Source of the DNA: an uncultured Acetatifactor sp.
GTDB taxonomy: Bacteria > Bacillota > Clostridia > Lachnospirales > Lachnospiraceae
Assembly (NCBI GenBank): GCA_934394665.1
Contig: CAKRRS010000025.1
Location: forward strand, 1-32,571
Length of the DNA stretch: 32,571 bases
Reading direction: 5' to 3'
This document shows, one piece after another, positions 2,295 to 26,629 of the stretch. The translations under genes were made by a program, and so were the position numbers. Numbering within the stretch: the stretch's first letter is position 1; each line of letters begins with the position of its first letter. The notes under the pieces are model-generated. The model ran no database searches. It was not told where the DNA came from and saw nothing but the letters and a program-made list of their open reading frames with translations.

Positions 2295-3239
2295 CTACTT
2301 TAATACCAGAGCTGCCGCGCCGAAGATTCCGGCATCATTTCCAAGCTTTGCCAGGGCAAATTTTGCCTGTTTGCAGGGACCGAACGCACATCTCTTATAG
2401 GAAGGCTCTATGTATTTGAATAAAATGTCTCCTGCTTTGGATACACCGCCACCGATGACGAAGATCTGTGGGTCGACCACGGCGGATACCGCTGCCAGTC
2501 CCTTGCCCAGATATTCTCCGAACTGTTCTGCGATCTCGACAGCTACCTGATCTCCTGCCTTTACCGCATCGAATACTGTCTTGGCAGAAATCTCGCCACC
2601 TCGCAATACGCTGGGTGCGTCGTCTTTTGCCAGGCGTCTGTTTGCCAGACGGGTAATGCCGGTAGCGGATGCATACTGCTCCAGGCAGCCCTTGTTCTTA
2701 CAGCCGCACTCTTCCGTCTCGCTGTCTTCGATATGGATATGTCCGATCTCTCCGCCGGCACCGTTGGTTCCGGTGAGGATCTTGCCGCCCAAGATGATGC
2801 CGCCACCGACACCGGTTCCCAGGGTTACGGCTACCAGATTGGAATAGCCTTTGCCGCCGCCCTGCCACATTTCGCCGAGGGCTGCCACATTCGCATCATT
2901 TCCTGCCTTCACCGTCACCGGCAAATTCAGTTCCTTCTTCAGTTCGTCTGCCAGATGAAACGATTTCCAGCCGATGTTGACTGCACCGTTTACCATATAG
3001 CCGTCATCATTGACCGCACCGGGAGCGCCGATGCCGACGCCTACCAGTTCTTGCGCGGTAATGTTCTTTTCCTGCATTTTATTCTTAATGGATGCTGCGA
3101 TATCCGGCAGCACCTTCTCACCGCCGTTGTCCTTGACCGTGGGGATTTCCCACTTGTCCAGAACCTGTCCTGCATCATTGAACAGTCCCAATTTTACTGT
3201 GGTTCCGCCCACATCTACTCCAAATGCATATTTACTCAT
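2295..3239 (-). CDS. glcK: ROK-family glucokinase (possible N-acetylhexosamine kinase)
   Basis: This is a 314-residue ROK sugar kinase. The N-terminus shows the phosphate-binding DVGGTTVKLG. The central part has GNDANVAALGE with the catalytic Asp and GTGVGGGIILGG. The ROK zinc motif region is CGCKNKGCLEQYAS. It phosphorylates glucose at C6 with ATP in the cytoplasm in most Firmicute orthologues at this locus. The start is ATG 3239 because the DVGG motif follows immediately and a GAGGAGGACGAGGA ribosome site precedes it; upstream in-frame starts would fall inside hprK. The ATGAGTAA junction overlaps the hprK stop by eight bases, so the two are translationally coupled. Because the window also encodes a GlcNAc-disaccharide pathway without an obvious GlcNAc kinase, a wider substrate range is worth testing. 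Confidence 0.9.
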   Translation of the reverse strand: MSKYAFGVDVGGTTVKLGLFNDAGQVLDKWEIPTVKDNGGEKVLPDIAASIKNKMQEKNITAQELVGVGIGAPGAVNDDGYMVNGAVNIGWKSFHLADELKKELNLPVTVKAGNDANVAALGEMWQGGGKGYSNLVAVTLGTGVGGGIILGGKILTGTNGAGGEIGHIHIEDSETEECGCKNKGCLEQYASATGITRLANRRLAKDDAPSVLRGGEISAKTVFDAVKAGDQVAVEIAEQFGEYLGKGLAAVSAVVDPQIFVIGGGVSKAGDILFKYIEPSYKRCAFGPCKQAKFALAKLGNDAGIFGAAALVLK

Positions 3240-4179
3240 CTTCCTCGTCCTCCTCACGTCTTTTTGCCAGAGAGTTCTGTACACGGGTGTACAGCTCTTT
3301 TGCTGCATTGTAACCCATCTTCTTCTGACGGTGGTTAACGGCTGCCGTCTCACAGATGACTGCCAGATTACGTCCGGGACGGATCGGAATGTTATGACAT
3401 ACTACCTTATTCCCCAGATATTCGGTATAGTTCTCTTCCAGTCCCAGTCTGTCGTATTCTTTATCCTTGTCCCAGTCTTCCAGTCGGATGACCAGATCAA
3501 TATTGGCGGTATCTCTGACGCTGGATGCACCGAACAGTGCCTTCACATCCACGATACCGATACCTCTCAGTTCAATAAAGTGCTTCGTGATATCCGGTGC
3601 GGAACCTACCAGGGTATCGTCACTTACCTTACGAAGTTCTACCACATCATCGGTGACCAGACGATGTCCTCTCTTGATCAGCTCCAACGCTGCCTCGGAC
3701 TTACCGATACCGCTCTCGCCTGTGATCAGGACACCTTCACCGTAGACATCCACCAATACACCGTGCACGGAGATGCAGGGAGCCAGCTTTACGTTCAGCC
3801 ATCTGATGATCTCCGACATGAAGGAGGAGGTAGATTTCTTGGTAGATAATACAGGAACTTCATGTCGGATCGCTGTCTCCAGGAAAATAGGATCCGGCTT
3901 CAGGTCACGGCTGAACACGATACAGGGAATATCATAGGACATCAGCTTCTCATACGCTTCCTTACGGGTGTCGTCCGTCATTCCTTCCATATAAGTATAT
4001 TCCACAAATCCGATGATCTGCAGTCTGGTGGCATCAAAATGTTCAAAATAGCCTGCCAGCTGCAATGCCGGACGGTTGATATCCGGCTGTGTGATCTTCA
4101 CATGCTTCACATCGATCTGAGGTGTGAGATTTTCCAGTTTCATTTTTTCGATAACACGGGTCAAACTTACACTTGCCAT
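3232..4179 (-). CDS. hprK: HPr kinase/phosphorylase
   Basis: HprK phosphorylates and dephosphorylates Ser46 of HPr, the signal that turns on CcpA-mediated carbon catabolite control in Firmicutes. The protein has 315 residues. It shows the conserved His139 in SVHGVLVDVYG, the P-loop GESGIGKSEAAL (about 154-165) and the HprK signature IELRGIGIVDVKALFG. The ATG at 4179 (MASVSLTRVIEK) is preferred over one four codons upstream, since the upstream ATG is itself part of the GGAG ribosome site. It is the first gene after the hairpin-rich gap downstream of uvrC and overlaps the glucokinase gene by eight bases. Its place next to glucokinase joins glucose phosphorylation with catabolite signalling. Confidence 0.96.
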   Translation of the reverse strand: MASVSLTRVIEKMKLENLTPQIDVKHVKITQPDINRPALQLAGYFEHFDATRLQIIGFVEYTYMEGMTDDTRKEAYEKLMSYDIPCIVFSRDLKPDPIFLETAIRHEVPVLSTKKSTSSFMSEIIRWLNVKLAPCISVHGVLVDVYGEGVLITGESGIGKSEAALELIKRGHRLVTDDVVELRKVSDDTLVGSAPDITKHFIELRGIGIVDVKALFGASSVRDTANIDLVIRLEDWDKDKEYDRLGLEENYTEYLGNKVVCHNIPIRPGRNLAVICETAAVNHRQKKMGYNAAKELYTRVQNSLAKRREEDEEDE

Positions 4180-9416: not shown

Positions 9417-9602
9417 GTATTTATCCTCCTTAGTCTTGCTGCCATCTCCTGACACTACTGAAGTGATTACCATTATTACACAAAAAAGAAAAGGAAGATC
9501 ATCTATTTACAAGACTATCTTCCATCTTCATGTTTGTATGACTTATTTCTGTTTTATAAAATATAAAAACCTTAGTAACTGGAAGTTACTTTTTCAATTG
9601 AG

Positions 9603-9616
9603 TCCTGATTCAAATT
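9603..9616 (+). repeat. Right copy of 14-bp direct repeat flanking the IS30 element
   Basis: Perfect second copy of TCCTGATTCAAATT. Joining the flanks at one copy would restore a continuous AT-rich intergenic sequence upstream of the serpin gene, without touching the serpin promoter. Confidence 0.5.
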
Positions 9617-9636
9617 TACTAAATCCAGATTTGGTA

Positions 9637-9666
9637 TTGAACAACCGGATGGATATCAAGTATAAT
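9637..9666 (+). promoter_or_regulatory. Predicted promoter of the serpin gene
   Basis: TTGAAC (9637-9642) and a perfect TATAAT (9661-9666) are separated by 18 bases. The pair lies 57 bases upstream of the serpin ATG and just outside the IS boundary, so the serpin gene should have its own sigma-A-type promoter. Confidence 0.6.
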
Positions 9667-9723
9667 TTTCTCAGATATTTGAGTCAGCTCCTGTACAATA
9701 AACACTCAGAAACGGAGGTTATT

Positions 9724-14319: not shown

Positions 14320-14375
14320 TAGTTCAAATGTGAAAAAAATATGAAAGACAGCATATCTCTGTGTCTACAGACAAA

Positions 14376-14409
14376 TGCCCGGAATTCGCAAAAAGCAAAC
14401 TTCCGGGCA
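14376..14409 (-). terminator. Hairpin terminator after nagA
   Basis: TGCCCGGAA and TTCCGGGCA form a perfect 9-bp stem around a 16-base loop, 32 bases past the nagA stop. On the minus strand it is followed by TTTGTCTG, a weak T-tract. It probably closes the long GlcNAc-disaccharide operon. Confidence 0.6.
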
Positions 14410-14441
14410 CCTGCCTGCAACAAACAACTTACAACAAACAA

Positions 14442-15575
14442 TTATAGAATCACACCCTTCAGAATGACCTGACGGCGATGCAACTCTTTGTCGGCAATTA
14501 CGATATTCGCGTATTTGCCTGCTTCCAGGGATCCTACCTCGTCAGAGGCTCCGATGCTGACTGCCGGATTGATGGTAGCCGCACGGATTGCCTGCTCCTT
14601 CGGGATTCCCATTTCCACGGCCTTACACATACAGTCATACAGATTCGTGGCGCTTCCGGCAATGGTTCCGTCTGCCAGGGTAGCTAAGGCTCCACGCACG
14701 GTAACATCCTGACCGCCCAGGGTGTACTGTCCATCCTCCATACCTACGGCACGCATGCTGTCACTGATGAGGATCATACGGTGTGCACCGAACAGCCGGA
14801 AGGTATTCCTTACCATACAGGGATGAATATGGATACCGTCGCAGATCAGCTCCGGCATGACTTCCGGATCATCCGCTGCGGCTCCCACTACAGCAGGTTC
14901 TCTGTGGGTCGGTACGGGCATGGCATTATACAGGTGGGTAATATGTTTGGCTCCTGCCTGTATTGCCTTGACGGCAGTGTCATAATCTGACATCGTATGT
15001 GCGACAGAGAAATGGAACTCATTCCCCAGTTCCCGGATACAGTCGATGGCTCCTTCTGTCTCCGGTGCGATGGATACCAGCTTTACCAGTCCTTTTGCGC
15101 ATTTTTGTAATTCCTTCAACGCTTCCACGCTGGGAGGGATAACATATTCTTCCTTCTGGGCACCCTTTTTTGCTTTGTTGATAAAAGGACCTTCCAGATG
15201 TACTCCCACTAAGCTGTCCGGCTTATCTTCTGACACTTCCGTCAGGATACGCTTCAATTCTTCCACCGGCAGCGTCATGGTCGCAGGACAGATACTGGTG
15301 ATTCCGTGGCTGTTCTCATAGGCTTCAATGGCACGATACGCTTCCTGTGTCCTATCACAGAAGTCATATCCCGCTGCTCCGTGAAAATGGATATCTACCA
15401 GTCCGGGCAGCACCAGCATCCCGCGTTCTGCTTCACTTAACTCTCCCTTGGTACAGAAGTCTACTTCTGCGATCCGGTCTCCCTCGATGCGGATTCTGCC
15501 CGGACGGAACTCATAATCCGCAGTATATAATAGTCCTTTTACTTCTTTTATTTGTTTCGCACCCTCTGCTGCCAT
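14442..15575 (-). CDS. nagA: N-acetylglucosamine-6-phosphate deacetylase
   Basis: NagA removes acetate from GlcNAc-6-P to give GlcN-6-P in the cytoplasm. The 377-residue amidohydrolase shows the metal site HFHGAAGYDF (63-72), Glu128 in HLEGPF, His193 in VAHTMSD, His214 in HLYNAMP and the catalytic Asp272 in ILISDSM; all are the expected family residues. AAGGAGGGG precedes the ATG, 18 bases after the nagB stop. It is the last gene of the cluster that begins with the GH94 phosphorylase, and supplies the step between GlcNAc-6-P made by the pathway and NagB. Confidence 0.95.
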   Translation of the reverse strand: MAAEGAKQIKEVKGLLYTADYEFRPGRIRIEGDRIAEVDFCTKGELSEAERGMLVLPGLVDIHFHGAAGYDFCDRTQEAYRAIEAYENSHGITSICPATMTLPVEELKRILTEVSEDKPDSLVGVHLEGPFINKAKKGAQKEEYVIPPSVEALKELQKCAKGLVKLVSIAPETEGAIDCIRELGNEFHFSVAHTMSDYDTAVKAIQAGAKHITHLYNAMPVPTHREPAVVGAAADDPEVMPELICDGIHIHPCMVRNTFRLFGAHRMILISDSMRAVGMEDGQYTLGGQDVTVRGALATLADGTIAGSATNLYDCMCKAVEMGIPKEQAIRAATINPAVSIGASDEVGSLEAGKYANIVIADKELHRRQVILKGVIL

Positions 15576-15593
15576 TTTGTCCCCTCCTTAACT

Positions 15594-16310
15594 TCAGCCA
15601 AGGCAGGCTTCGTCGCCTACCAGAATCACGTTATTGTGAAGCTGTAATACCGAAGCGGGAACCTGAGGACAGATCGGTCCCCAGAATGCTTTCTTTACGA
15701 TTTCTTTTTTATCTGCTCCGCATGCCATAATGAGGATCATCTTCGCCTGCATGATGGACTGGATACCCATGGTATATGCCTGCCTGGGCACCTGATCTTC
15801 AGAATCGAAAAATCTTGCATTCGCTTCGATAGTGCTTTCGCTCAGATCCACGCAATGTGTAGTCTTGGAAAACTCCTCTGCGGGCTCATTAAAACCGATA
15901 TGCCCGTTATGTCCAAGTCCTAAAAGCTGTAAGTCAATACCGCCGGAACGCTCCAGCTTGGCATCGTACTCACCGCATGCCTGGGTGGGATCTTTTTTTC
16001 CGTCGGGAACATTGGTGTTTTCTTTTTTTATATTTACATGATCAAAGAGCTGATGGTTCATAAAGTAGCGGTATCCGTTGGGATTCTCGCCGTCCAACCC
16101 CCTGTATTCGTCTAAATTCATGGTCTTCACCTGAGAGAGATCCAACTCTCCGGCTTCGTATTTTGCGATCAGTCTCTGATAGGCACCGATGGGTGTGGAT
16201 CCTGTTGCCAGTCCCAGCACGCTGTCCGGTTTTAATAAAATCTGTGCAGCGATCAGATCTGCCGCCAGCGTGGATGCTTCCTCATAATTCTTCGCACAAT
16301 AAACTCTCAT
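15594..16310 (-). CDS. nagB: Glucosamine-6-phosphate deaminase
   Basis: NagB converts GlcN-6-P to fructose-6-P and ammonia, feeding amino sugars into glycolysis. The protein has 238 residues. Visible are GLATGSTPIGAY (phosphate loop), NLDEYRGL with catalytic Asp67, and GLGHNGHIGFNEP with His137 and Glu142. The start is ATG 16310 (MRVYCAKNYEEAS) because AGGAGGAG lies just before it; an in-frame ATG six codons upstream lacks this. It lies between the response regulator (62-base gap) and nagA (18-base gap). It has the short C-terminus of the Gram-positive enzymes, without an obvious allosteric extension. Confidence 0.95.
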   Translation of the reverse strand: MRVYCAKNYEEASTLAADLIAAQILLKPDSVLGLATGSTPIGAYQRLIAKYEAGELDLSQVKTMNLDEYRGLDGENPNGYRYFMNHQLFDHVNIKKENTNVPDGKKDPTQACGEYDAKLERSGGIDLQLLGLGHNGHIGFNEPAEEFSKTTHCVDLSESTIEANARFFDSEDQVPRQAYTMGIQSIMQAKMILIMACGADKKEIVKKAFWGPICPQVPASVLQLHNNVILVGDEACLG

Positions 16311-16372
16311 ATTCGTCTCCTCCTGCACGCTCTAAAGGTCATGCATAAGGAACTCTATAGACGGTCACAGAC

Positions 16373-17146
16373 TCAGCTTAAAGTATTTCGATACTCATTG
16401 GCCGAGATTCCTTCCAGCTTTTTGAATACCCGGGAGAAATGGGCCAGATCCTGGAATCCCACTTCTTCTGCGATATCATAGATTCTGCGGGAAGGATCCT
16501 GTAACAGTTCCTTAGCTTCCGCAATACGTGCTTTGTTCAGGGCAACGGAAAAATTCTCGCCCGTATGCTTATTTAACAGCTTGCTCAGATGCCACTGGCT
16601 CACATAACAGTGATCCGCCACATCCGCTAGCTGGATTCGTTCTCTGGAATGTTCTTTGATATATTCCAGTGCTTTTGTCACCACAAAATTATTCGCTTCG
16701 CTATTGTACAGTACGGCATCATCCCTGTCTTCTTCCGTAGGTTCCTCTATCTCTCCTTCTTCCATGGGGAACATCTTCAGCTTCTCCGTCATGGTCTCAA
16801 TAGCTTCGTACAATTCATCCATCTTGGATGGTTTCAGCAGGAAGGCCGACACCCCAAGTCGGATAGCTTCCTGCGCATATGTAAATTCACGATACCCCGT
16901 AAGAATAGACACCTGCATGTACGGGAATTCTGATTTCAGACCGGCGATCATGGTCAGTCCGTCCATTTTCGGCATACTGATATCGGAGATGACGATAGCA
17001 GGCTTCTCCCTGCGGATCACTTCCATCCCTTCGATTCCGTTATAGCCGAATCCCACGACCTTACAATTCCAGTGCTCCCAGGGGATACTCCGGGACAGTC
17101 CCTCCACGATCAGCGGTTCATCATCAATAATCACTACCTTGTACAT
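16373..17146 (-). CDS. AraC-type response regulator (YesN-like)
   Basis: The protein has 257 residues. An N-terminal receiver domain shows IIDDE (acidic pair at 8-9), the phospho-acceptor Asp55 in ISDISMPKMDG and the conserved Lys in FLLKPSK. An acidic linker follows (GEIEEPTEEDRDD), then an AraC double helix-turn-helix from about 158, including GFQDLAHFSRVFKKLEG. Such regulators activate neighbouring sugar-uptake genes once phosphorylated by a YesM-type kinase. The likely partner is the kinase at 20546-22321, on the far side of the transporter genes. The ATG at 17146 has GAGAGGTG upstream; earlier in-frame starts would overlap the permease gene. Its DNA target is probably upstream of the phosphorylase gene, where the promoter has a poor -35. 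Confidence 0.92.
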   Translation of the reverse strand: MYKVVIIDDEPLIVEGLSRSIPWEHWNCKVVGFGYNGIEGMEVIRREKPAIVISDISMPKMDGLTMIAGLKSEFPYMQVSILTGYREFTYAQEAIRLGVSAFLLKPSKMDELYEAIETMTEKLKMFPMEEGEIEEPTEEDRDDAVLYNSEANNFVVTKALEYIKEHSRERIQLADVADHCYVSQWHLSKLLNKHTGENFSVALNKARIAEAKELLQDPSRRIYDIAEEVGFQDLAHFSRVFKKLEGISANEYRNTLS

Positions 17147-17225
17147 ACCGGCACCTCTCATATGTTCATCTGTCATGTTCGTTAAGCAGATGTTATTAAG
17201 CAGAACCCATTCGCTTAATAGCATT

Positions 17226-18080
17226 CTACCCCTTAACGGCACCTGCTGTCATTCCTTTTATGATATATTTCTGTAAGAAAATGTACACGATTACGACCGG
17301 CACAACTACCAGGGTAACGGCTGCTGCCATCAGTCCGTAGTTCGTTCCTTCCTGGCTGGTCAGTTCATTCAAAAGTCTTGTGATGGTACGCATCTCCGGA
17401 CGGCGAAGGAAGAACATCTGTGTAAACAGATCATTGTAGCTCCACAGGAATGCGAAAATAGCTACCGTAGCGAAAGAAGGCTTGGTCAACGGCATGATGA
17501 CCTTGAAATAAATCTGGAATGCATTACAGCCTTCCATGTACGCTGCTTCTTCCAGTTCCAGCGGCAGGCTCTTCATGTACCCGGACAACACTACGATGGA
17601 GAATGCCAGGTTACCGGCTACCTGCGGCAGGATCACAGACAGCATGGTCAGTCCCCAGCTGCTGGTATTAACGATCCCCCAGGAGGTCTCCATGGAGAAC
17701 ACCGGGATGATGGTGGCGAATACCGGGAACATCATAGCGGACACTACCATGGAATACAGGAAGCTGCTTCCCCGGAAACAATATCTTGCCAGTGCATATG
17801 CTGCCATACCCGCTAACAGAATTACTAACAGTGATACCATCATGGAGATGAAGATACTGTTGCGGTAAGCTCCGAAGATATTCAGATTACCGAATGCCTT
17901 ACGATAGTTGGCTGTGGTGAACAGATCCCCCACCGGCAGAGAGAAAGAATCTGCAAGGATCTTATCCTTCGCCTTGAAGGAGTTCTGGATGACCCAGATG
18001 ATCGGATAGATCGTAGTAAAAGCCCAGATGGTCAGGAAAAGGTATACCAATATGGATCCAACGGATATTTTTTTCTTCAT
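17226..18080 (-). CDS. Carbohydrate ABC transporter permease, MalG type
   Basis: This 284-residue inner-membrane subunit of a CUT1 sugar importer has six predicted membrane segments and the cytoplasmic EAA loop EEAAYMEGCNAFQIYFKVIM, which docks the ATPase. The ending, FLQKYIIKGMTAGAVKG, is typical of MalG-like permeases. AGGAGGG precedes the ATG in the 11-base gap after the partner permease, so the two are co-translated. No ATPase gene is in the cluster. CUT1 systems of Firmicutes often share one MsmK-type ATPase encoded elsewhere. The substrate is inferred to be a GlcNAc disaccharide from the neighbours. Confidence 0.93.
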   Translation of the reverse strand: MKKKISVGSILVYLFLTIWAFTTIYPIIWVIQNSFKAKDKILADSFSLPVGDLFTTANYRKAFGNLNIFGAYRNSIFISMMVSLLVILLAGMAAYALARYCFRGSSFLYSMVVSAMMFPVFATIIPVFSMETSWGIVNTSSWGLTMLSVILPQVAGNLAFSIVVLSGYMKSLPLELEEAAYMEGCNAFQIYFKVIMPLTKPSFATVAIFAFLWSYNDLFTQMFFLRRPEMRTITRLLNELTSQEGTNYGLMAAAVTLVVVPVVIVYIFLQKYIIKGMTAGAVKG

Positions 18081-18091
18081 GGTCTTCCCTC

Positions 18092-18979
18092 CTAGTAATC
18101 TTTTTCTTTGAAGATGGCATTTACCACCTTAGCCAGTACGATGCCGAGTACTACGATCAGTACTGCCAGTGCGGAACCGTAATCTACATTCTTAGTCTCC
18201 ATGGTGTGATAGTACATGTAGGTTCCGGTAAGGAAGGTGCTCTTTAAGGGCATTCCCTTCGGGAACATGGTCCAGGGCAGGTCGAATACTTTCAGGGCAC
18301 CAGTGACTGCCAGAACGCTGCAGGTACAGATCACGTTGTGTAACAGTGGTATGGATATGTATCTTACCTTCTGGAATGTAGAAGCTCCGTCAATTCTGGC
18401 TGCTTCATACAATTCATCGGAAATATTATTCAGTCCCGTGATCAGGATCACGAAATAGAATCCTACATACTGCCACATAACCGGCAGCATCATGGTGAAA
18501 AGTGCGATCCCTTCGCCCTTCCAGTCTGTCAGTCCGACCTTACCCAGTTTTTCCAGGATCTGGTTCAGCATACCCTTGTCATACAGGAAGATCAGGTTGA
18601 ACAACAGACCAAGTGCGGTAGCAGAGATCACGATAGGGAAGAAGTATACCGTCTTGAAAAAGTGTTTCCCGTGTGTAATATTATCTACCATCAATGCCAG
18701 GACAATAGCGATTCCCACCTGACCCACCAGCGTAACCAGCATCATGATCAGTGTGTTTTTCAGGGAAATCCACATAACTTCATCATGAAACATCTCTACA
18801 TAGTTGCTGTACCAGGGATCCAGGAATCCTTCACCGCTGCTTCCCAGCTGTCGTATATTCTGAAAACTATTCCAGATATTCTGTAAGAACGGGTAATACA
18901 AATAGACAATCATGAAAAGAAAGGCGGGGATCAGGAAAATTATTGCCGGTTTCTTATTCTTGTATATACTTGCTCCCAT
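18092..18979 (-). CDS. Carbohydrate ABC transporter permease, MalF/UgpA type
   Basis: The 295-residue membrane subunit forms the channel with the MalG-type permease. It has about six membrane segments, starting with PAIIFLIPAFLFMIVYLYYP, and the EAA loop DELYEAARIDGASTFQKVRY. GGAGG lies just before the ATG. It follows the binding-protein gene after a 77-base gap with a GC-rich stem-loop, an arrangement known to let the binding protein be made in excess over the permeases. Confidence 0.93.
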   Translation of the reverse strand: MGASIYKNKKPAIIFLIPAFLFMIVYLYYPFLQNIWNSFQNIRQLGSSGEGFLDPWYSNYVEMFHDEVMWISLKNTLIMMLVTLVGQVGIAIVLALMVDNITHGKHFFKTVYFFPIVISATALGLLFNLIFLYDKGMLNQILEKLGKVGLTDWKGEGIALFTMMLPVMWQYVGFYFVILITGLNNISDELYEAARIDGASTFQKVRYISIPLLHNVICTCSVLAVTGALKVFDLPWTMFPKGMPLKSTFLTGTYMYYHTMETKNVDYGSALAVLIVVLGIVLAKVVNAIFKEKDY

Positions 18980-19010
18980 ATGCTTCCTCCATTCACTTTC
19001 CTGTTGAAAT

Positions 19011-19036
19011 CAGCCGGAGGTTTTATCCCCCGGCTG
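19011..19036 (-). terminator. Stem-loop between binding protein and permease genes
   Basis: CAGCCGG and CCGGCTG form a perfect 7-bp stem around a 12-base loop, about 20 bases past the binding-protein stop. No T-run follows on the minus strand, so it is better read as an mRNA-stabilising or partial-termination structure than as a full terminator. Confidence 0.55.
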
Positions 19037-19056
19037 AGCAAGAAATCTTTTTTATT

Positions 19057-20436
19057 TTACTGCTGTGCGTGATACAGCTTCAGTCCTTCTTCCACTGCCT
19101 CAGCTGCGTCCAGCTTACCGGTTACGATCTCGGGCATGCCGTCAAAAGTAGTTACACGGCAGTCACCCATGAAGATGTCCTGTACGGCTCCGGTCAGGGA
19201 TGTAACACCGGACATCATATCCATAGCTTCGATCTGCAATGCATTGAACTGACTCTCGTCTACTGCAGGAGCGTTCTTCAGAGCGCTTGCGGTATGCTGT
19301 GCAAATACGGGAACTAATTCATCAGAGGTCATGTAGCTTACGAAATCAACAGCTGCTGCTCTCTTGTCGGGATCCTCCCATGCTTTTCTGGTGATGTAGT
19401 AACCCATGGACAGACCACCGATCAGATCGGTTGCCTTTCTGTCACCATTGCCGGGTACATAGGTAACGGTAAAGTTAGCCAGCTTGTCAGCATCCAGGGT
19501 AGAAGCATCCTCGGGATCGGACTGGCATGCACTTACAATACCGCCAACCTTCCAGGAACCATCGATCAGGAATGCAGCCTTGCTGTCTACGAACATTGCA
19601 AAAGTCTCATCATCGGTAGCGGATAAAGTGTTGTCAGGGAAATATCCCAGTTCATACAGTTCTTTGATATCCAGCATACCGTCTACCCAGGAAGTAGCAT
19701 CCTCAATTCCTGTGGGAACCTGTACATGATTCTCAGGGGTGTTATGATTAAAGATCGCATACTCCCACCAATAATGAGGGATGTTGCCCAGAGCTGCTGC
19801 AATCGGAGTATATCCTGCATCCTTGATCTTCTGGCAGTCTTCCTTGAACATGTCCATGGTGTAATCAGCGCCGGGTACTTCTACGCCTGCTGCATCCAGG
19901 ACTTCTTTGTTCACGAACATTGCTTCCCAGAAACCGTTGACGGGAACTGCGTATTTTTTGCCGTCTACCAGAGAGTCAGCGATCAGATCATCATTCATGT
20001 TAGATGCATAATCGGGATACTCTGCGCGGATCTCATCAATAGAAACTACCTTGTCAGCTTCGATGAAGCTGTTTGCATCTGCTCCGTTGAAGAAGAACAG
20101 TACGTCGGGTTCGGAGCCTGTCTCGAAGTCAGTGATTACTCTGGTCTTGAAGGTCTCATCAGAAGTAGCAGAGGTATCTGCCACAGTGTTACCGGTCTCG
20201 TCACACCATGCCTTTACGGCATTTTTGAAATTCTGTGCGTTACCATCTTCACCTGCGAAGGTGGTGGTTACATTCAGTTCTACAGGCTTTGCTGTAGCTG
20301 TTGTTCCCTCGGAGCTTGTCGTACTTTCTGTTTTTGTGCCGGTCGTCTCTACGCCCCCGTCAGACGGCTGGCTGCCACATGCTGCAAGAGAAAAAATCAT
20401 GGTACCTGCCAGCATTGCTGCAATAAATCGTTTCAT
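19057..20436 (-). CDS. Extracellular sugar-binding lipoprotein of the ABC importer
   Basis: The 459-residue protein has a lipoprotein signal peptide with lipobox LAAC (Cys20), then a low-complexity Ser/Thr-rich linker (about 24-50), then a type-1 extracellular solute-binding domain (LNVTTTFAG onward, with GSWKVGG and DLIGGLSMGYYITRKAWEDP). It captures the sugar outside and delivers it to the two permeases downstream. The ATG has GGGAGG upstream. The gene follows the sensor kinase with a 109-base gap that contains a possible extra promoter. The ligand is inferred as chitobiose or a related GlcNAc oligosaccharide only from the linked phosphorylase, nagB and nagA. Confidence 0.9.
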   Translation of the reverse strand: MKRFIAAMLAGTMIFSLAACGSQPSDGGVETTGTKTESTTSSEGTTATAKPVELNVTTTFAGEDGNAQNFKNAVKAWCDETGNTVADTSATSDETFKTRVITDFETGSEPDVLFFFNGADANSFIEADKVVSIDEIRAEYPDYASNMNDDLIADSLVDGKKYAVPVNGFWEAMFVNKEVLDAAGVEVPGADYTMDMFKEDCQKIKDAGYTPIAAALGNIPHYWWEYAIFNHNTPENHVQVPTGIEDATSWVDGMLDIKELYELGYFPDNTLSATDDETFAMFVDSKAAFLIDGSWKVGGIVSACQSDPEDASTLDADKLANFTVTYVPGNGDRKATDLIGGLSMGYYITRKAWEDPDKRAAAVDFVSYMTSDELVPVFAQHTASALKNAPAVDESQFNALQIEAMDMMSGVTSLTGAVQDIFMGDCRVTTFDGMPEIVTGKLDAAEAVEEGLKLYHAQQ

Positions 20437-20463
20437 ACACTATACCTCCCAAATTTTGTTTTC

Positions 20464-20480
20464 CAGATGTTCTTCATCTG
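20464..20480 (-). promoter_or_regulatory. Leader hairpin of the binding-protein gene
   Basis: CAGATG-TTCTT-CATCTG is a perfect 6-bp stem with a five-base loop, about 30 bases upstream of the binding-protein ATG. It would be near the 5' end of any transcript from the possible promoter just upstream. Confidence 0.35.
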
Positions 20481-20490
20481 TTGTAACTAT

Positions 20491-20517
20491 ATAATAGTAT
20501 GAATGGGGGAAAATCAA
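20491..20517 (-). promoter_or_regulatory. Possible internal promoter before the binding-protein gene
   Basis: On the minus strand TTGATT is followed after 15 bases by TATTAT, a short spacer. If used, it would raise transporter expression relative to the kinase gene upstream. Confidence 0.3.
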
Positions 20518-20545
20518 AATTGTTGCCTTTGGCTTTTTTTGCCTA

Positions 20546-22321
20546 TTATTGTTGTCTTCCTTCATCAATTTTGACCAAAATTGTACTAACTGTATGATTA
20601 CTTTTGTTATTAGTGATGAACAATCCGCACTCCGGACCGTACATCATGCGAAGTCTTTGGTCAACATTACGGATTCCAAGGCTTACACGGTGTTCCTTTT
20701 GTGGATTCGGTTCTTCCTTTAACAGCTTGTGTATCTTCGCCTGATCTTCTTCACTTAAAGCGCGGTTGTTCTCAATCTCGATACACAACAGATCTTCCCG
20801 CTTGCGATACAGACGGATCACCAGCTCCCCTTCTCTGGTAATGCTCATGCCGTGTTCAATGGCATTCTCTGCAATGGGCTGCACGATCAGGCGGGGAATC
20901 TTATAGTTTAACAGGCTCTCATCTATTTCTTTTCGACAGGTGAATTTCTCTCCATACCGCTGTGTGATGATATAGAGATATGCATCCACATATTCCATCT
21001 CCTCCGCCACAGTATTGTAAGGATCCGCCTTACGGTTCATGGTGGCTTCCAGCATAGTGGACAGTGCCTCGATCATCTGACTGACACGCATATTACCGTT
21101 CAGGCGTGCCTCCCAGTTGATGATCTCCAATGTATTATTCAGGAAATGTGGATTGATCTGTGACTGCAATGCCATGATCTTTGCATCCCGCAGTGCGATC
21201 TCTTCCATGTAGATTTTATCAAACTGCTGCTTCAGCTGGGATGACATATAATTAAACGATTCTTCCATATGATAGAATTCTTCGCTGTTTGCCATATTCT
21301 CTATCTGGGTGCCGTACTCCCCGGCTCTCACCACATCAAATACCTTAATGAGATCCTGCACCGGTCTGTTGACCCGTTTATTCAGGAAATTATAAATAAT
21401 GAATACCAGCGGCAGTGCAAACACCGCCAGAATTCCGTATACATAGCGGATTGTCTTAATCTCTGCATAGATTGCCGACCGGTCCAGTTCTACCACACAG
21501 TCTAACGTGGAATGGTACAGCTTCAGCCTCTTATATACATAAGGGTTCTGCCTGCCGCTCGCATGCTCTATAAAGCTGCCATTTTCCGCAAGCTGATTCT
21601 GCTGTTCTTCGCCATAGTGCAAGCTGTCGCCCCCCTCCAGGCTTAAAGCATGTGTGCCGTCGAGATAAACCACAGCGTTTTCATAACCCCAGACACTTTT
21701 TAAACTCTCCATCAGAGATTCTTCGTTCAATTCGATCGCGAGGATTGCAAAAGGGTGGAATTTGGAGTCCACCAGGTTACGGATCATATACAGTCGTCCG
21801 TCGTAGCTGCGCAGTTCCGTCCGGGTATCCAGGTCATCCATCTCTTCTAACAGATCCTTTGCCACATAGGTCTTGAAATAAGTGATGTCACGATAGGTTC
21901 CGCCGGTACTGTTATTGTAGGTGTAATAGATATCATCGGGATATTCCCGGAATACCAGGTTCACAGCCTGGCAGTTTTTATGGAACATATACTGCTGCTC
22001 CAGGAAGGTAAATACGGTTGTCTGGAAATCCCGTCTGTTTCCGCCATTCTGATACGTCAGATATGCTTCCCGGATCACGTTCAGATAGGAAGCATTCTTG
22101 GATGCGGTCTCACTCTCTGCCAGCTGCAGCTCCATGATCTCTGCCGCCTTTTCCATGGACGTCGTCACGGACCGATCGATCTGGGTATGTACTTTCCGTG
22201 TAGCCATAATGCTCATGATGCCGTTAGTCAGAAGCAGCGGCAGGAACCAGCCGAATAACAGTAGGAAAAGCATACTCCATAGCAAGGATTTCCGTCTGCA
22301 GATTTTTTCTTTTGTCTTCAT
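20546..22321 (-). CDS. YesM-type sensor histidine kinase
   Basis: The 591-residue membrane kinase has one membrane segment near residues 12-36, a large extracellular sensor region (about 40-300), a second segment (about 300-321), a HAMP linker (KRVNRPVQDLIKVFDVV) and a His_kinase/HATPase module. The phospho-acceptor is His392 in SQINPHFLNNTLE; many relatives have Tyr where this has the first Asn. The ATP site shows QPIAENAIEHG and LGIRNVDQRLRMMYG. The ATG at 22321 is chosen over one two codons upstream, which would directly touch the GAGGGGG ribosome site. It should sense extracellular sugar, perhaps through the binding protein, and phosphorylate the AraC-type regulator at 16373-17146. Confidence 0.92.
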   Translation of the reverse strand: MKTKEKICRRKSLLWSMLFLLLFGWFLPLLLTNGIMSIMATRKVHTQIDRSVTTSMEKAAEIMELQLAESETASKNASYLNVIREAYLTYQNGGNRRDFQTTVFTFLEQQYMFHKNCQAVNLVFREYPDDIYYTYNNSTGGTYRDITYFKTYVAKDLLEEMDDLDTRTELRSYDGRLYMIRNLVDSKFHPFAILAIELNEESLMESLKSVWGYENAVVYLDGTHALSLEGGDSLHYGEEQQNQLAENGSFIEHASGRQNPYVYKRLKLYHSTLDCVVELDRSAIYAEIKTIRYVYGILAVFALPLVFIIYNFLNKRVNRPVQDLIKVFDVVRAGEYGTQIENMANSEEFYHMEESFNYMSSQLKQQFDKIYMEEIALRDAKIMALQSQINPHFLNNTLEIINWEARLNGNMRVSQMIEALSTMLEATMNRKADPYNTVAEEMEYVDAYLYIITQRYGEKFTCRKEIDESLLNYKIPRLIVQPIAENAIEHGMSITREGELVIRLYRKREDLLCIEIENNRALSEEDQAKIHKLLKEEPNPQKEHRVSLGIRNVDQRLRMMYGPECGLFITNNKSNHTVSTILVKIDEGRQQ

Positions 22322-22352
22322 GAACATCCCCCTCAGAAAATTTTTGTATATA

Positions 22353-22395
22353 GAAAGATGATAACACAGTTCTCCACTGTGTTACCATCTCTTTC
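22353..22395 (-). terminator. Long stem-loop between phosphohexomutase and kinase genes
   Basis: GAAAGATGATAACACAGT (22353-22370) pairs with ACTGTGTTACCATCTCTTTC (22376-22395) around a five-base loop with one mismatch and one bulge. It begins 20 bases past the mutase stop. The minus-strand 3' side runs into TTTCTATATAC, a weak T-tract, so partial termination is plausible and would lower kinase expression relative to the enzymes upstream. Confidence 0.55.
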
Positions 22396-22415
22396 ACCAA
22401 ATTATGATAATCCAT

Positions 22416-23834
22416 TTACTTTTTCAGCAATAAGTAATCCTCGAAGATCTCGCAAAGCTGCTTTGCATCTTCCGCTTCCGGCATCTCACAGAAGATTCGA
22501 AGTAACGGTTCCGTACCGGAGAACCGTACAGAAATCCATCCACCGTTTTTCAAATACAGCTTTACCCCGTCAAGGTAAGAAATCTGCTCTACTTCGTAGG
22601 GAATCTCCGGCAATTTCTTTTCTTCCAGCAGATGCTTCTGAATCGCTTCCTTTTTCTCCTGACTGAAGCGGTAGTCTCTCTCTTCCAATGCAAGCTTACC
22701 GTACTGCGCATGGATCTCTTCCATGATCGCGGAAAGCTTTTTGCCGGTGACAGCAAGCATTTCCACCAGCAATGCAGATGCATAGACACCATCCTTACCC
22801 TTGATATGACCACGAACCGTCAATCCACCTGATGACTCTCCGCCGATGACAGCATCCGTTGCATACATTTTCGCAGAGATATGTTTAAATCCTACGGGAA
22901 CCTCATAGCATTTCTCACCGAAGCTCTCTGCCACGCGGTCCAGCATATGCGTGGTGCAGATATTGCGGACTACGGGGCCGTGCCAGCCCTTGTATTTCAT
23001 CAGGTAATAGTACAGCAGTACCAGAATGTCATTGGGATGCAGAAAGTTTCCCTTTTCATCGATGACACCGATACGGTCCGCATCACCGTCGGTTGCGATT
23101 CCCATGTCGCATTTTCTGTCCAGAACATAGTTCTGTAAAGCACGCAGCGTGTCTGCTGTAGGTGCCGGCAGTTTACCTCCAAACAACGTATCATGACGCT
23201 CATGAATAGTCTCCAACTCGCATCTCGCAGTCATCAGCACAGTCTTAATAGAGGTCTCGCTGACGCCATACATGGGATCCAGTGCCACGCGCAGTCCCGC
23301 TTCACGGATAGCTTCCATATCCACTGCGGCAATGATGCTGTCCAGGTACTCATTCAAAGGATAGATTTCTTCGATCAGTCCGGCTTCCAGTGCTTTCTGA
23401 TAATCCATTTCATTCACGGGCAGATCCGTCACCTCATTAATAAACTGCTCGATCTCCATGGTCTGTTTCTCGTCTGCATCTCTGCCGCCGTAGGTGAATA
23501 CCTTAACTCCATTGTAGATTGCCGGATTATGGCTCGCCGTGATCATCATACCGTACTGGTAATCATGCTTCATCACATAGAACATTACCAGAGGTGTCGG
23601 TACGGATTTATTGATCAGTTTTGTATGTATCCCTTCTGCCGCAAATACCATTGCCGCCCACTGCATGGCTTCCTTGGACAGGAAACGTCGGTCATAACCG
23701 ATGACCATTCCGGTGTTCTCCACACCTTCCTTTTTCATCTTATCGCACAGTGCCTTGGACAGGATCTGGATATTCTCCTTCGTAAAATCTTCTCCGATGA
23801 CGGCTCGGAAACCACCGGTACCAAATTTGATCAT
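22416..23834 (-). CDS. Phosphohexomutase, proposed GlcNAc-1-phosphate mutase
   Basis: The 472-residue protein is an alpha-D-phosphohexomutase (phosphoglucomutase/phosphomannomutase family). It shows the catalytic phosphoserine loop TASHNP (Ser101), the metal loop DGDADR (249-254), the sugar-recognition loop GGESSGG (331-337) and the phosphate-binding RFSGTEP near the C-terminus. All four active-site motifs are intact. The sugar loop differs from the usual GlmM form. Family membership alone does not fix the substrate. Directly downstream of the chitobiose phosphorylase, the simplest role is converting GlcNAc-1-P to GlcNAc-6-P for NagA. The Vibrio chitobiose operon pairs the same two enzyme types. 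AGGAGG precedes the ATG. Confidence 0.88.
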   Translation of the reverse strand: MIKFGTGGFRAVIGEDFTKENIQILSKALCDKMKKEGVENTGMVIGYDRRFLSKEAMQWAAMVFAAEGIHTKLINKSVPTPLVMFYVMKHDYQYGMMITASHNPAIYNGVKVFTYGGRDADEKQTMEIEQFINEVTDLPVNEMDYQKALEAGLIEEIYPLNEYLDSIIAAVDMEAIREAGLRVALDPMYGVSETSIKTVLMTARCELETIHERHDTLFGGKLPAPTADTLRALQNYVLDRKCDMGIATDGDADRIGVIDEKGNFLHPNDILVLLYYYLMKYKGWHGPVVRNICTTHMLDRVAESFGEKCYEVPVGFKHISAKMYATDAVIGGESSGGLTVRGHIKGKDGVYASALLVEMLAVTGKKLSAIMEEIHAQYGKLALEERDYRFSQEKKEAIQKHLLEEKKLPEIPYEVEQISYLDGVKLYLKNGGWISVRFSGTEPLLRIFCEMPEAEDAKQLCEIFEDYLLLKK

Positions 23835-23909
23835 AATGCTGCCTCCTTATATATTATCTTTTTTGCTTTTGTTCCGTGCTACGCACTACCACTTCTCCGC
23901 TCCGGTCCC

Positions 23910-23956
23910 AAGGTCTTTCACCCACTTATGAGCAAGCTCATGTGGGCTTAGACCTT
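23910..23956 (-). terminator. Composite stem-loop between phosphorylase and mutase genes
   Basis: Three collinear arm pairs make one long hairpin: AAGGTCT/AGACCTT outside, CCCAC/GTGGG in the middle and ATGAGC-AA-GCTCAT at the tip; GGTC/GACC may extend the base. No T-run follows on the minus strand. It lies 16 bases past the phosphorylase stop and may protect the upstream mRNA from 3' decay or partly terminate. Confidence 0.55.
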
Positions 23957-23972
23957 TTGACCCTGACATCAT

Positions 23973-26378
23973 TTACATAATGACGAATACTTCATGTTCT
24001 GTGCCTGCGCGGAATACGGGCACTTTATCTGCCTTATGTCCGTCCACAAGGATCTCTTTTATCCCATGCATCACCTTGCTGCGGTTTTCCACCTTAATAT
24101 TGTAAGTTGCTCCACGCCATCTTCTGGTCACCTCGAAGCCTTCCCAGTCTGCCGGAATGCAGGGATCGATGATCAGGCAGTCATAATCCGGACGGATTCC
24201 CAGCATATATCTGGTAGCGCTGAAGTAGGACCAGCCGCCGCTGCCTGTCATGAATGGATGTCTTGCTCTGCCGAATGCTGTGTGATCTTTGCCTGCAATA
24301 AACTGACAGTAGGAATAGGGTTCGGATTCCCGGATCTCGATCCTATCATTCTGCCAGTAAGGGCACAGCGCATCGTAGAATTTCATTGCCAGGTCGCCTC
24401 TGCCGCAGACGCAGGCTGCTGCCCATGCCCAGGGATTGGGATGGGAGAAAATAGCTCCGTTTTCCTTCAGACCCGGATATACCCTCGTTACAAATCCGAT
24501 ATCATCATCGGGCTTCGTATAGGAAGGAGTGTTCAGCAGTAGACCATACGGTGTATACAGATATTCGTCGATGGTCTCCAGTGTCTTTGCACTCTTCTCC
24601 GGATCTGCCACGCCGGACAGAATTGCCCAGGCGTTGGACTCCAGATGTACCTTGCCCTCTGCGTCTTCCTTGCAGCCGATCTTTTTCCCATTCTTCGTGA
24701 TGCCGCGGATGTACCAGTCACCATCCCACAATACCGCATCGCAGGCTGCCTTTACCTTATTTGCCAGCTGATGATAATGCTTCGCATCCTCTCTCTCCCC
24801 GAGGATCTCCGCCAGCATGATAAAATGCTGCAATGCCCAATAGTGCAGGAAGCTTACCATAGCGCTCTCACCGCCGCCCAGATTCAGGCAGTCATTCCAG
24901 TCAGCTCGAAGTCCCTTGCAGATTCCGTCGTTGCCGACCTGCTCCGCGCTGAAGTCCAGAATCCGCTTCAGATGTTCATATACGCTCTCCGTTACTTTAT
25001 TTCCCAATACGTAAGTATCTGCATAGGTGAACTCTTTTCTGGCAAAATTCAGGTCTCCTGTTTCTTTTATGTACTCTACCACTGCACCCACAAGCCACAG
25101 GGCATCATCGGAGCAGGCATCCTTGATTCCGTGGATCATGCTCTGTTTGTCCGGCTCCGGGATCACCGTCGGTGACTGGAACGGTTTCTCTCCGGTCTTT
25201 TCCTCAAACCATTCCGGTGAGAACAGGTGCAGACCGTATCCTGTGGTGGTCAGCCCCTTTAACAGCTGTTCGATTCTTTCCCGGCACTTATCCGGATTGG
25301 AATGAGGGATCGTCATGGCATCCTGTGCCGTATCACGATATCCCAGTCCCACACGACCTCCGACCTCAATAAAGGATGCAAAGCGTGAGAACATGACGTT
25401 GATCTCCGACTGGTACAGTGTCCAGGTATTGATCAGTGTATTCATACCTTCATTCGGAGTCTTGATCTGCAGTGCATCGTATTTTTGTTTCCAATAAGCT
25501 GCCAGATCGGTATAGACCGCATCCACTCTCTTCAGGTCACTGTATTTTACGCGGATCCGTCTGCCTTCTTCGCGATTGCCCTCTCCCAGCATGATCACGA
25601 AGCGGGCTTCCTCACCGGGCTGCAGTTTGAAGTTTTTCTGTAAACTTCCGCAGTGGTTGCCTCCCAGTTCTGTGGAACCGGAGAGAACTGCTCTGTCCAA
25701 TCCCGCAGGATGGTCTTCGGTGCCATACACCCCTAAGAACTTGTCTCTTACGCAGTCATAGCCATCCGGTGTGAAGCTGGCAGTAAGATACTGATACCCT
25801 TTTTCCTCGTAAAACAGGTCTTCCTCGATGATACCGTCTTCGTAGGAAGAACCGGCACAGTACAGACTCATCTGGAAATTCTGGTTGTCGATCATAATGT
25901 GATGGAAAGAAAATTCCATGTAAGTAAATAAGGAAAGATCCCTGACGGCATCTGTGGTGTTTTTCACCTTTACGTCCCACAGCAATACATTCTCCCCACG
26001 GGGAATGACCATAGTCTGTGAAGATGCCAGTCCGTCATACTCACTTTCGTAGACCGTGTAAGACAGTCCGTGACGGCAGCGGTAGCTTGCCTTGGACAGG
26101 TCCTTCGCCACCGGCTGCCAGGAGATGGAATGGTAATCCTTCTTCTCATTATCTCTGATGTATACATAGAATCCCGGCCGGTCCATGGGTACCCCATTCC
26201 CACGGAAACGGCTGATCCTGTGATACTCGGGAGTTTTGTAGAACAGATAACCTCCCGCCGTGTGATTGATGACCGCTGCCATGTCCTCGACACCCAGATA
26301 GTTGGTCCAGGAACAGGGCAGAGCCACGTTGTCGATGACATATTCTCTTTTTTCATTATCGAAATAGCCGTATTGCAA
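23973..26378 (-). CDS. chbP: GH94 N,N'-diacetylchitobiose phosphorylase
   Basis: This 801-residue GH94 enzyme should split chitobiose with phosphate into GlcNAc-1-P and GlcNAc inside the cell. It matches the Vibrio proteolyticus enzyme, as I remember it, along its whole length: YGYFDN at the start, NYLGVED, SISWQPVAK, SFIEVGGRVGLGYRDTAQDA, CSDDALWL, GLRADWNDCLNLGGGESAMV (catalytic Asp in RADWND, about 491-496), SFLHYWALQ, HLESN, IGFVTRVYPGLKENGAIFSH and PCIPADWEGFEVTRRWRGAT. Cellobiose phosphorylases differ at several of these places. The start is TTG 26378, preceded by GGGAGGGA; no ATG fits. There is no signal peptide, so it acts on imported sugar. It leads the cluster ending with nagA. Exact sugar preference is inferred, not proven. 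Confidence 0.9.
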   Translation of the reverse strand: MQYGYFDNEKREYVIDNVALPCSWTNYLGVEDMAAVINHTAGGYLFYKTPEYHRISRFRGNGVPMDRPGFYVYIRDNEKKDYHSISWQPVAKDLSKASYRCRHGLSYTVYESEYDGLASSQTMVIPRGENVLLWDVKVKNTTDAVRDLSLFTYMEFSFHHIMIDNQNFQMSLYCAGSSYEDGIIEEDLFYEEKGYQYLTASFTPDGYDCVRDKFLGVYGTEDHPAGLDRAVLSGSTELGGNHCGSLQKNFKLQPGEEARFVIMLGEGNREEGRRIRVKYSDLKRVDAVYTDLAAYWKQKYDALQIKTPNEGMNTLINTWTLYQSEINVMFSRFASFIEVGGRVGLGYRDTAQDAMTIPHSNPDKCRERIEQLLKGLTTTGYGLHLFSPEWFEEKTGEKPFQSPTVIPEPDKQSMIHGIKDACSDDALWLVGAVVEYIKETGDLNFARKEFTYADTYVLGNKVTESVYEHLKRILDFSAEQVGNDGICKGLRADWNDCLNLGGGESAMVSFLHYWALQHFIMLAEILGEREDAKHYHQLANKVKAACDAVLWDGDWYIRGITKNGKKIGCKEDAEGKVHLESNAWAILSGVADPEKSAKTLETIDEYLYTPYGLLLNTPSYTKPDDDIGFVTRVYPGLKENGAIFSHPNPWAWAAACVCGRGDLAMKFYDALCPYWQNDRIEIRESEPYSYCQFIAGKDHTAFGRARHPFMTGSGGWSYFSATRYMLGIRPDYDCLIIDPCIPADWEGFEVTRRWRGATYNIKVENRSKVMHGIKEILVDGHKADKVPVFRAGTEHEVFVIM

Positions 26379-26446
26379 AACGCGTCCCTCCCGTATATAG
26401 TTTTTTGCTTTTTCAGAACTTTTTTGTTCTGTTTTATTGTAATTTC

Positions 26447-26475
26447 ATTATAGAAAAGAAGGCCTTTGTTTAAAA
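26447..26475 (-). promoter_or_regulatory. Predicted promoter of the chitobiose operon
   Basis: On the minus strand a perfect TATAAT lies about 70 bases upstream of the TTG start, but the -35 position at 17-base spacing reads TTTTAA, a poor match. A good -10 with a bad -35 fits a promoter that needs an activator, here most simply the AraC-type response regulator. The 251-base divergent gap is AT-rich and also serves the DUF1846 gene. Confidence 0.45.
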
Positions 26476-26572
26476 TTGCTCATTATGTGATTATTTGCCC
26501 AAATTTGTTAGATATAATAATGATTTCCAAAAAAAATTATACTTTTCAGTAGATTTTTGGGAAACACTAAAC

Positions 26573-26578
26573 TATAAT
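26573..26578 (+). promoter_or_regulatory. Predicted -10 of the DUF1846 gene
   Basis: ACTATAATAG contains a perfect TATAAT 52 bases before the ATG. The -35 position (TAGATT at 17-base spacing) is weak. Confidence 0.4.
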
Positions 26579-26629
26579 AGAACATCATGGGATTTTAGTT
26601 GCAAAGATCCATAAAGAAAGGTGTCAGCA

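Follow-up and report, generated by a model that had tools for sequence, protein, structure and literature searches.

The 32,571-nucleotide contig CAKRRS010000025.1 of an uncultured Acetatifactor sp. (Lachnospiraceae), which as a whole we call the window, raises the question whether a set of nine genes on its minus strand, between positions 14442 and 26378, directs the phosphorolytic use of N,N'-diacetylchitobiose (chitobiose, (GlcNAc)2, the disaccharide of N-acetylglucosamine, GlcNAc). The original prediction had named nine same-strand genes and their families, and both the positions and the family assignments were borne out, Pfam and NCBIfam being in agreement (Table 1). Taking gene content, enzyme clade and related loci together, we consider it highly probable that the cluster would act as a catabolic operon for chitobiose. 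The nearest genome, G001, is 99% complete, has 30% of sampled words in common with the window and encodes a GH94 protein 99% identical to that of the window.

The product of gh94 carries GH94 domains over its full length (PF17167 with 544 bits and PF06165 with 238 bits in Pfam), and no NCBIfam model matched it. Its best solved relative is the chitobiose phosphorylase of Vibrio proteolyticus (PDB 1v7v), which matches over the full length with 1053.6 bits, and the next one is a cellobiose phosphorylase with 467 bits. When aligned, the window protein shows identities of 55.8% with 1v7v, 34.4% with the cellobiose phosphorylase 3qde and 36.6% with 8bou. An aspartate at the position of D492 of 1v7v, which we take to be the catalytic residue, is present in all 82 sequences compared, that is the window protein, the proteins of 80 related loci and L001, which comes from the same record as locus L003. 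As described in the available passages of the paper depositing 8bou (PMC10318527), the tyrosine of cellobiose phosphorylase is replaced in chitobiose phosphorylase by Val631, a residue crucial for specificity. This position is V in 82 of the 82 sequences and Y in 3qde, in 8bou and in L002, the second GH94 protein of G001; among six further GH94 proteins of the family three have Y and three F. We dropped R343 as a specificity marker since R is found also in 8bou and four other GH94 proteins.

The original prediction had proposed a GH94 tree as one of its tests. A FastTree phylogeny, which left out the duplicate L001 and took in 8bou and 3qde (a cellobiose phosphorylase by its PDB name), separated 82 sequences (window, 80 loci and 1v7v) from nine other GH94 proteins with a support of 0.971, and the window protein thus stands in the clade of the proven chitobiose phosphorylase, apart from 3qde and 8bou. 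Names were of little help here. The PDB molecule name of 8bou is N,N'-diacetylchitobiose phosphorylase, yet according to those parts of the depositing paper that are available the protein is a beta-glucan phosphorylase of Blautia producta (PMC10318527), and automatic names in the GH94 family are therefore unreliable. Close relatives of the window protein are named N,N'-diacetylchitobiose phosphorylase in several cases and GH36-type or GH116 in others. By residue and tree together, likely chitobiose phosphorylases can be told apart from glucan phosphorylases carrying the same name, and by this sequence comparison the assignment of the window enzyme as a chitobiose-specific phosphorylase is well supported.

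The co-localisation of the genes is conserved. Scanning the GTDB species genomes yielded 183 stretches encoding the phosphorylase, from which 80 loci were kept, and 59 of these with at least 9.5 kb downstream were used for counting the core genes, gene order not being enforced. The locus is present also in cultured relatives such as Kineothrix alysoides KNHs209 and Lachnoclostridium phytofermentans KNHs2131. In 45 of the 59 loci the full set of seven core genes shares a strand. Taken singly, the mutase gene is present in 58 loci, yesM in 58, the gene of the solute-binding protein (SBP) in 56, the genes of the MalF-type and MalG-type permeases in 51 and 50, respectively, and yesN in 54. The mutase gene is the next gene after gh94 in 72 of the 75 loci that extend 1.5 kb or more downstream; one of the three loci without a scored mutase, L062, does have it in a frame that overlaps gh94 beyond the limit of our script, which brings the count to 73 of 75, and L023 and L067 lack the mutase gene. 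With these counts, 45 of 59 for the core and 72 of 75 for the mutase gene next to gh94, the association of the genes is not due to chance.

The mutase itself has all four PGM/PMM Pfam domains and passes no NCBIfam cut-off. It is the third paralogue in G001 and 30% and 29% identical to the other two, which are GlmM (over its cut-off) and a phosphoglucomutase-like protein of 573 residues (over none). The motifs TASHNP, DGDADR and RFSGTEP are found in 76, 75 and 74 of 77 cluster mutases, respectively. From its context we infer that this mutase acts specifically on GlcNAc-1-phosphate (GlcNAc-1-P).

It had also been proposed that the lower nag steps are built into the cluster. This holds for the window, where the products of nagB and nagA both score over their cut-offs. 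Among the relatives nagA or nagB is found in 30 of the 59 loci (both in 19), on the same strand in 17 and on the opposite strand only in 13; nagA and nagB are an optional appendage of the cluster.

A protein search in 250 genomes of the family found, among the matches listed, a phosphorylase that is 62% or more identical in 29 genomes and other matches of at most 40%. The genome G023, which is of the same genus as G001, gave a GH94 match of only 35%. The same energy-saving route is thus predicted in about one in nine of the sampled family genomes, as far as the matches listed go. Searches in plasmids showed no Vibrio cluster among the matches listed. They did return OY725836.1:107111-110958, listed as a plasmid of Subdoligranulum variabile, in which a 64%-identical GH94 gene product is encoded beside a 60%-identical mutase.

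Table 1. Features of the chitobiose cluster and related features in the window
Feature	Position	Strand	Evidence
N,N'-diacetylchitobiose phosphorylase-type GH94, 801 residues, TTG start	23973..26378	-	1v7v match 1053.6 bits, GH94 domains, equivalents of V631 and D492, clade support 0.971
Dedicated phosphohexomutase, predicted GlcNAc-1-P to GlcNAc-6-P	22416..23834	-	four PGM_PMM domains, third paralogue in G001, adjacency to gh94
YesM-type sensor histidine kinase	20546..22327	-	PF06580 His_kinase; HAMP under its cut-off
Extracellular solute-binding lipoprotein (SBP), putatively chitobiose-binding	19057..20436	-	PF01547 SBP_bac_1; profile ranking in PDB
CUT1 permease, MalF/UgpA type	18092..18979	-	PF00528 BPD_transp_1; GlcT/UgpA-like under cut-offs
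CUT1 permease, MalG/GlcU type	17226..18080	-	PF00528 BPD_transp_1; GlcU/MalG-like under cut-offs
YesN-type response regulator, true start probably an internal ATG (by eye)	16373..17242	-	PF00072, PF12833, PF00165
nagB, glucosamine-6-phosphate deaminase	15594..16328	-	TIGR00502 270.4 vs cut-off 236.9
nagA, N-acetylglucosamine-6-phosphate deacetylase	14442..15575	-	TIGR00221 276.5 vs cut-off 225.65
Upstream region between cluster and divergent DUF1846 gene, promoter-like TATAAT sites	26379..26620	-	consensus matches only
ROK sugar kinase encoded outside the cluster, candidate for phosphorylating released GlcNAc	2295..3353	-	PF00480 245 bits; TIGR00744 over cut-off

The genes for uptake and control follow the mutase gene. 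An SBP together with two permeases makes up a CUT1 importer; no ABC ATPase is found among the nine genes, and G001 has one ATPase, of the UgpC type, whose MalK OB domain scores above the Pfam cut-off. The importer would hence share a MalK/UgpC-like ATPase encoded elsewhere. A profile made from the window SBP and 28 of the 57 cluster SBPs of suitable length ranked the (GlcNAc)2-binding proteins NagB1 (7.2e-26) and NagB2 (4.8e-25) as the top PDB chains, the next chain following at 1.1e-20. The PF06580 sensor and the receiver-AraC regulator are a pair of the YesM/YesN type. In six of the 59 loci (L009, L010, L025, L063, L064 and L081) the order yesM, SBP gene, yesN is kept and no permease gene follows, as if the SBP were retained for sensing; three of them (L009, L010 and L081) carry other permease-like genes on the upstream side of gh94.

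Upstream of gh94 we find promoter-like matches at 26563-26536 and 26474-26447, by consensus only, and within the region 26 such matches were observed versus 18.2 expected (standard deviation 4.4). Upstream 7-mers are common to up to 33 of 65 loci versus 15-17 in mononucleotide shuffles. A cre-like pattern gave one match in the window, at chance level and distant from the cluster.

In the pathway we propose, the nine genes would be transcribed together, and chitobiose would be imported by the lipoprotein and the two permeases, powered by the shared ATPase. The GH94 enzyme would cleave chitobiose with phosphate, yielding GlcNAc-1-P and free GlcNAc; the former would be converted to GlcNAc-6-P by the dedicated mutase, and NagA and NagB would lead from GlcNAc-6-P via GlcN-6-P to fructose-6-P. 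YesM/YesN would induce the operon, and the binding protein may serve as a co-receptor. The released GlcNAc would be phosphorylated most likely by the ROK glucokinase encoded elsewhere in the window.

This last step needs a kinase because phosphorolysis leaves one free GlcNAc per disaccharide, and no sugar kinase is found among the nine genes. The pathway had been called complete; enzyme specificity, a mutase of its own, uptake and the steps of NagA and NagB stand up to sequence, tree, residue and neighbourhood comparison, but completeness does not, since the cluster has neither a GlcNAc kinase nor an ABC ATPase and G001 yielded only a glucokinase-type ROK protein as a plausible enzyme. The ROK search of G001 gave two proteins over the cut-off and one below it (19.3 bits). 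Of the two, one is a glucokinase that also passes its NCBIfam cut-off, and the other is ScrK-like (fructokinase-like) and stays below its own. The BadF search gave two strong matches within a single frame of 1430 residues and two matches below the cut-off (27.9 and 20.8 bits). The sole APH match was rejected as a GlcNAc kinase, being most similar to CotS, a spore coat family (163.9 versus a cut-off of 172.7 bits). The candidate ROK protein of the window scores 323.4 with the glucokinase model TIGR00744 (cut-off 260.35) and 142.8 with the GlcNAc kinase model (cut-off 380); its gene follows murB and adjoins a frame that by eye resembles HPr kinase.

ROK and BadF queries against 2894 frames of the 80 loci matched only in L035, L014 and L075, in all three cases upstream of gh94, the L075 frame having 412 residues. 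In L035 the match is a glucokinase-type ROK protein over the cut-off whose gene ends 767 bases before gh94, and this is the only hint from the neighbourhood toward a kinase. BadF proteins of about 310-345 residues are encoded in several of the phosphorylase-bearing genomes; the four that were scanned, of six fetched, reached 60-87 of the 370 bits required by NagK_SO3507 and are thus far below its cut-off. Possibly no dedicated GlcNAc kinase takes part in the pathway and the SBP doubles as co-receptor of YesM for chitobiose, a combined proposal that draws on the six loci with no permease gene after yesM-SBP-yesN and on locus L139 (see below) and that we regard as tentative. One sugar of each pair would then enter metabolism without ATP, and the other would go to a broad ROK glucokinase or to neighbours.

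As to the source of the sugar, locus L139 (genome G100) has on one strand gh94, the mutase gene, a gene for a GH18 protein, yesM, the SBP gene, two permease genes, yesN, a chemoreceptor gene and nagB. In the GH18 protein, of 806 residues, a complete GH18 domain is combined with CBM5/12 modules; the protein scores 737 bits with a solved chitinase B, and its start by eye resembles a signal peptide. Chitinase, chemoreceptor, importer, phosphorylase and nagB of L139 appear, as judged from sequence, to form one self-contained chitin unit. Because this chitinase with its chitin-binding-type modules lies inside a relative's cluster, it favours chitin over N-glycans or the cell wall as the source. Among the three substrates considered originally (chitin, the N-glycan core and the cell wall) chitin is therefore favoured, the choice staying open for the window's own organism.

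A GH18 match of at least 125 bits, a threshold placed afterwards in the gap between 125.9 and 112.4 bits, was found in nine of the 29 genomes with this phosphorylase versus two of 29 genomes without it (Fisher p 0.041). The comparison genomes (13 without any GH94 match and 16 with weaker ones only) were taken in the order of their handles at a completeness of at least 90% and a contamination of at most 5%, while the bearers were unfiltered and some of them are larger or less complete. Apart from G100, eight genomes have a strong GH18 match, and in these the GH18 gene and the phosphorylase gene are on different contigs. G001 gave no GH20 and no GH85 match, GH3 enzymes of the NagZ type not being searched, and a single GH18 match of 87 bits covering part of the profile only; we therefore think that this organism probably scavenges chitobiose made by others. 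The other 20 bearers, G001 included, likewise seem to scavenge fragments that other organisms produce. With this cluster it can be tested directly whether Firmicutes of the gut and rumen make use of chitin fragments.

Several points weigh against a catabolic operon for chitobiose. The tree held one proven chitobiose phosphorylase sequence, that of 1v7v, and no dedicated GlcNAc kinase was found in G001 by the ROK, BadF and APH searches. Divergent SBPs, about 31-36% identical to that of the window, stood outside the profile, and with the window SBP alone the ABC transporter chain 4g68 ranked slightly above NagB2, the scores being about equal. The upstream 7-mers of the 65 loci are A+T-rich runs and -10-like words and show no clear regulator site. 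No relatives of the L139 chitinase were found among the 2894 frames of the other loci, and there is also the late choice of the GH18 threshold. The presence of this chitinase in L139 slightly raised our estimate for chitobiose catabolism and lowered that for a source other than chitin and for a role in cell-wall supply. A different GlcNAc-beta-1,4 disaccharide, such as one released from N-glycan cores or cell walls, is an unlikely natural substrate in our view: a gut or rumen site is named in at least eight of the 80 record titles, 20 of the 29 bearers have no GH18 match of at least 125 bits and G001 has only its weak one, all of which would suit such a sugar, but GH85 was not found in G001, a chitinase lies inside the G100 cluster, GH18 is enriched among the bearers and the SBP resembles binders of chitin oligosaccharides.

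GlcNAc-1-P is the direct precursor of UDP-GlcNAc, and the cluster might accordingly serve mainly to supply cell-wall synthesis and not catabolism, the more so as it holds no kinase for the other half of the sugar. The mutase beside GH94 in 72 of 75 loci and the nearby nagA or nagB in 30 of 59 point to breakdown and make this very unlikely. We give still less credit to the GH94 protein being a phosphorylase of cellobiose, cellodextrin or mixed-linkage glucan that merely bears the name of a chitobiose phosphorylase. The wrong name of 8bou is a precedent for exactly this; the window enzyme, however, differs from 8bou and 3qde in having V in place of their Y, shares 56% identity with the proven enzyme versus 37% with 8bou, falls on the opposite side of the tree split and is encoded near nagA/nagB and an SBP of the chitin-oligosaccharide type. 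On clade, identity and V631 we dropped the identification as a glucan phosphorylase.

With catabolism of chitobiose as the preferred reading, the cluster can be compared with known systems. The chitobiose operon of Vibrio has its own importer type and includes mutase and amino-sugar kinase genes. As in V. furnissii and V. proteolyticus a GH94 enzyme would act on imported (GlcNAc)2, the window enzyme being 56% identical to that of V. proteolyticus, whereas the window has a CUT1 importer, YesM/YesN, attached nagB-nagA and no kinase. The proposed logic of the Vibrio operon is thus retained in the phosphorylase beside a phosphohexomutase (72 of 75 loci) but not in an amino-sugar kinase, there being none among the nine genes. 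Paenibacillus sp. FPU-7 has the (GlcNAc)2-binding proteins NagB1 and NagB2 that are nearest to the cluster SBPs. In the available parts of PMC8233162 its nagB1 is beside a two-component system and nagB2 beside two permeases, while the window cluster unites sensor and permeases, and a GH3 enzyme hydrolyses (GlcNAc)2, for which the window would use phosphorylase and mutase. Blautia producta BpGH94MLG (8bou) is likewise a GH94 phosphorylase of a Firmicute with an ABC importer, as far as the excerpts of PMC10318527 go, but differs in its beta-glucan substrates, its Tyr at the specificity position and its 37% identity to the window enzyme. The chb/nag genes of Lacticaseibacillus paracasei are a Gram-positive case of chitobiose use with nag genes, and in the accessible text of PMC12791066 a phosphorylase is mentioned only for Vibrio.

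The consulted part of a 2022 review (PMC8950772) lists three chitobiose phosphorylases that have been characterised, two of them from different Vibrio species and one from Ignavibacterium. In a comparison of Roseburia a chitobiose phosphorylase is given by annotation with moderate confidence (PMC7478625, in part), and for L. phytofermentans strong induction of two GH18 chitinases is described and a cellodextrin phosphorylase mentioned (PMC4230839, in part). Judged from titles, abstracts and passages in the open-access literature, we found no experimental study of a chitobiose-phosphorylase cluster in a Firmicute. The enzyme type is known from marine Vibrio, the layout of the cluster is a Gram-positive variant and its function is predicted.

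From gh94 to nagA the spacings between the genes are 138, 88, 109, 77, 11, -17, 44 and 18 bases. Upstream the neighbour is the divergent DUF1846 gene and downstream it is ftsH, named by reading its sequence. Just past nagA, at 14340-14420, a hairpin-like sequence CCCGGAA...TTCCGGG with a T-rich stretch was noticed by eye, which may mark the end of the operon; the hairpin scan of the window did not pick it up, as its loop exceeds the limit of the scan. Searches of the window for tRNAs and for Rfam families above threshold gave none. Methyl-accepting chemotaxis receptors, confirmed by Pfam, are encoded in or beside the cluster at L139:1335-3461, L032:4184-6328 and L053:9808-11883, and L029 and L067 have chemotaxis receptors by similarity of the sensor part only, which suggests that in some loci chemotaxis is tied to chitobiose use. 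Elsewhere in the window, at 9415-11022 on the plus strand, there is a gene for a serpin (serine protease inhibitor) of 535 residues.

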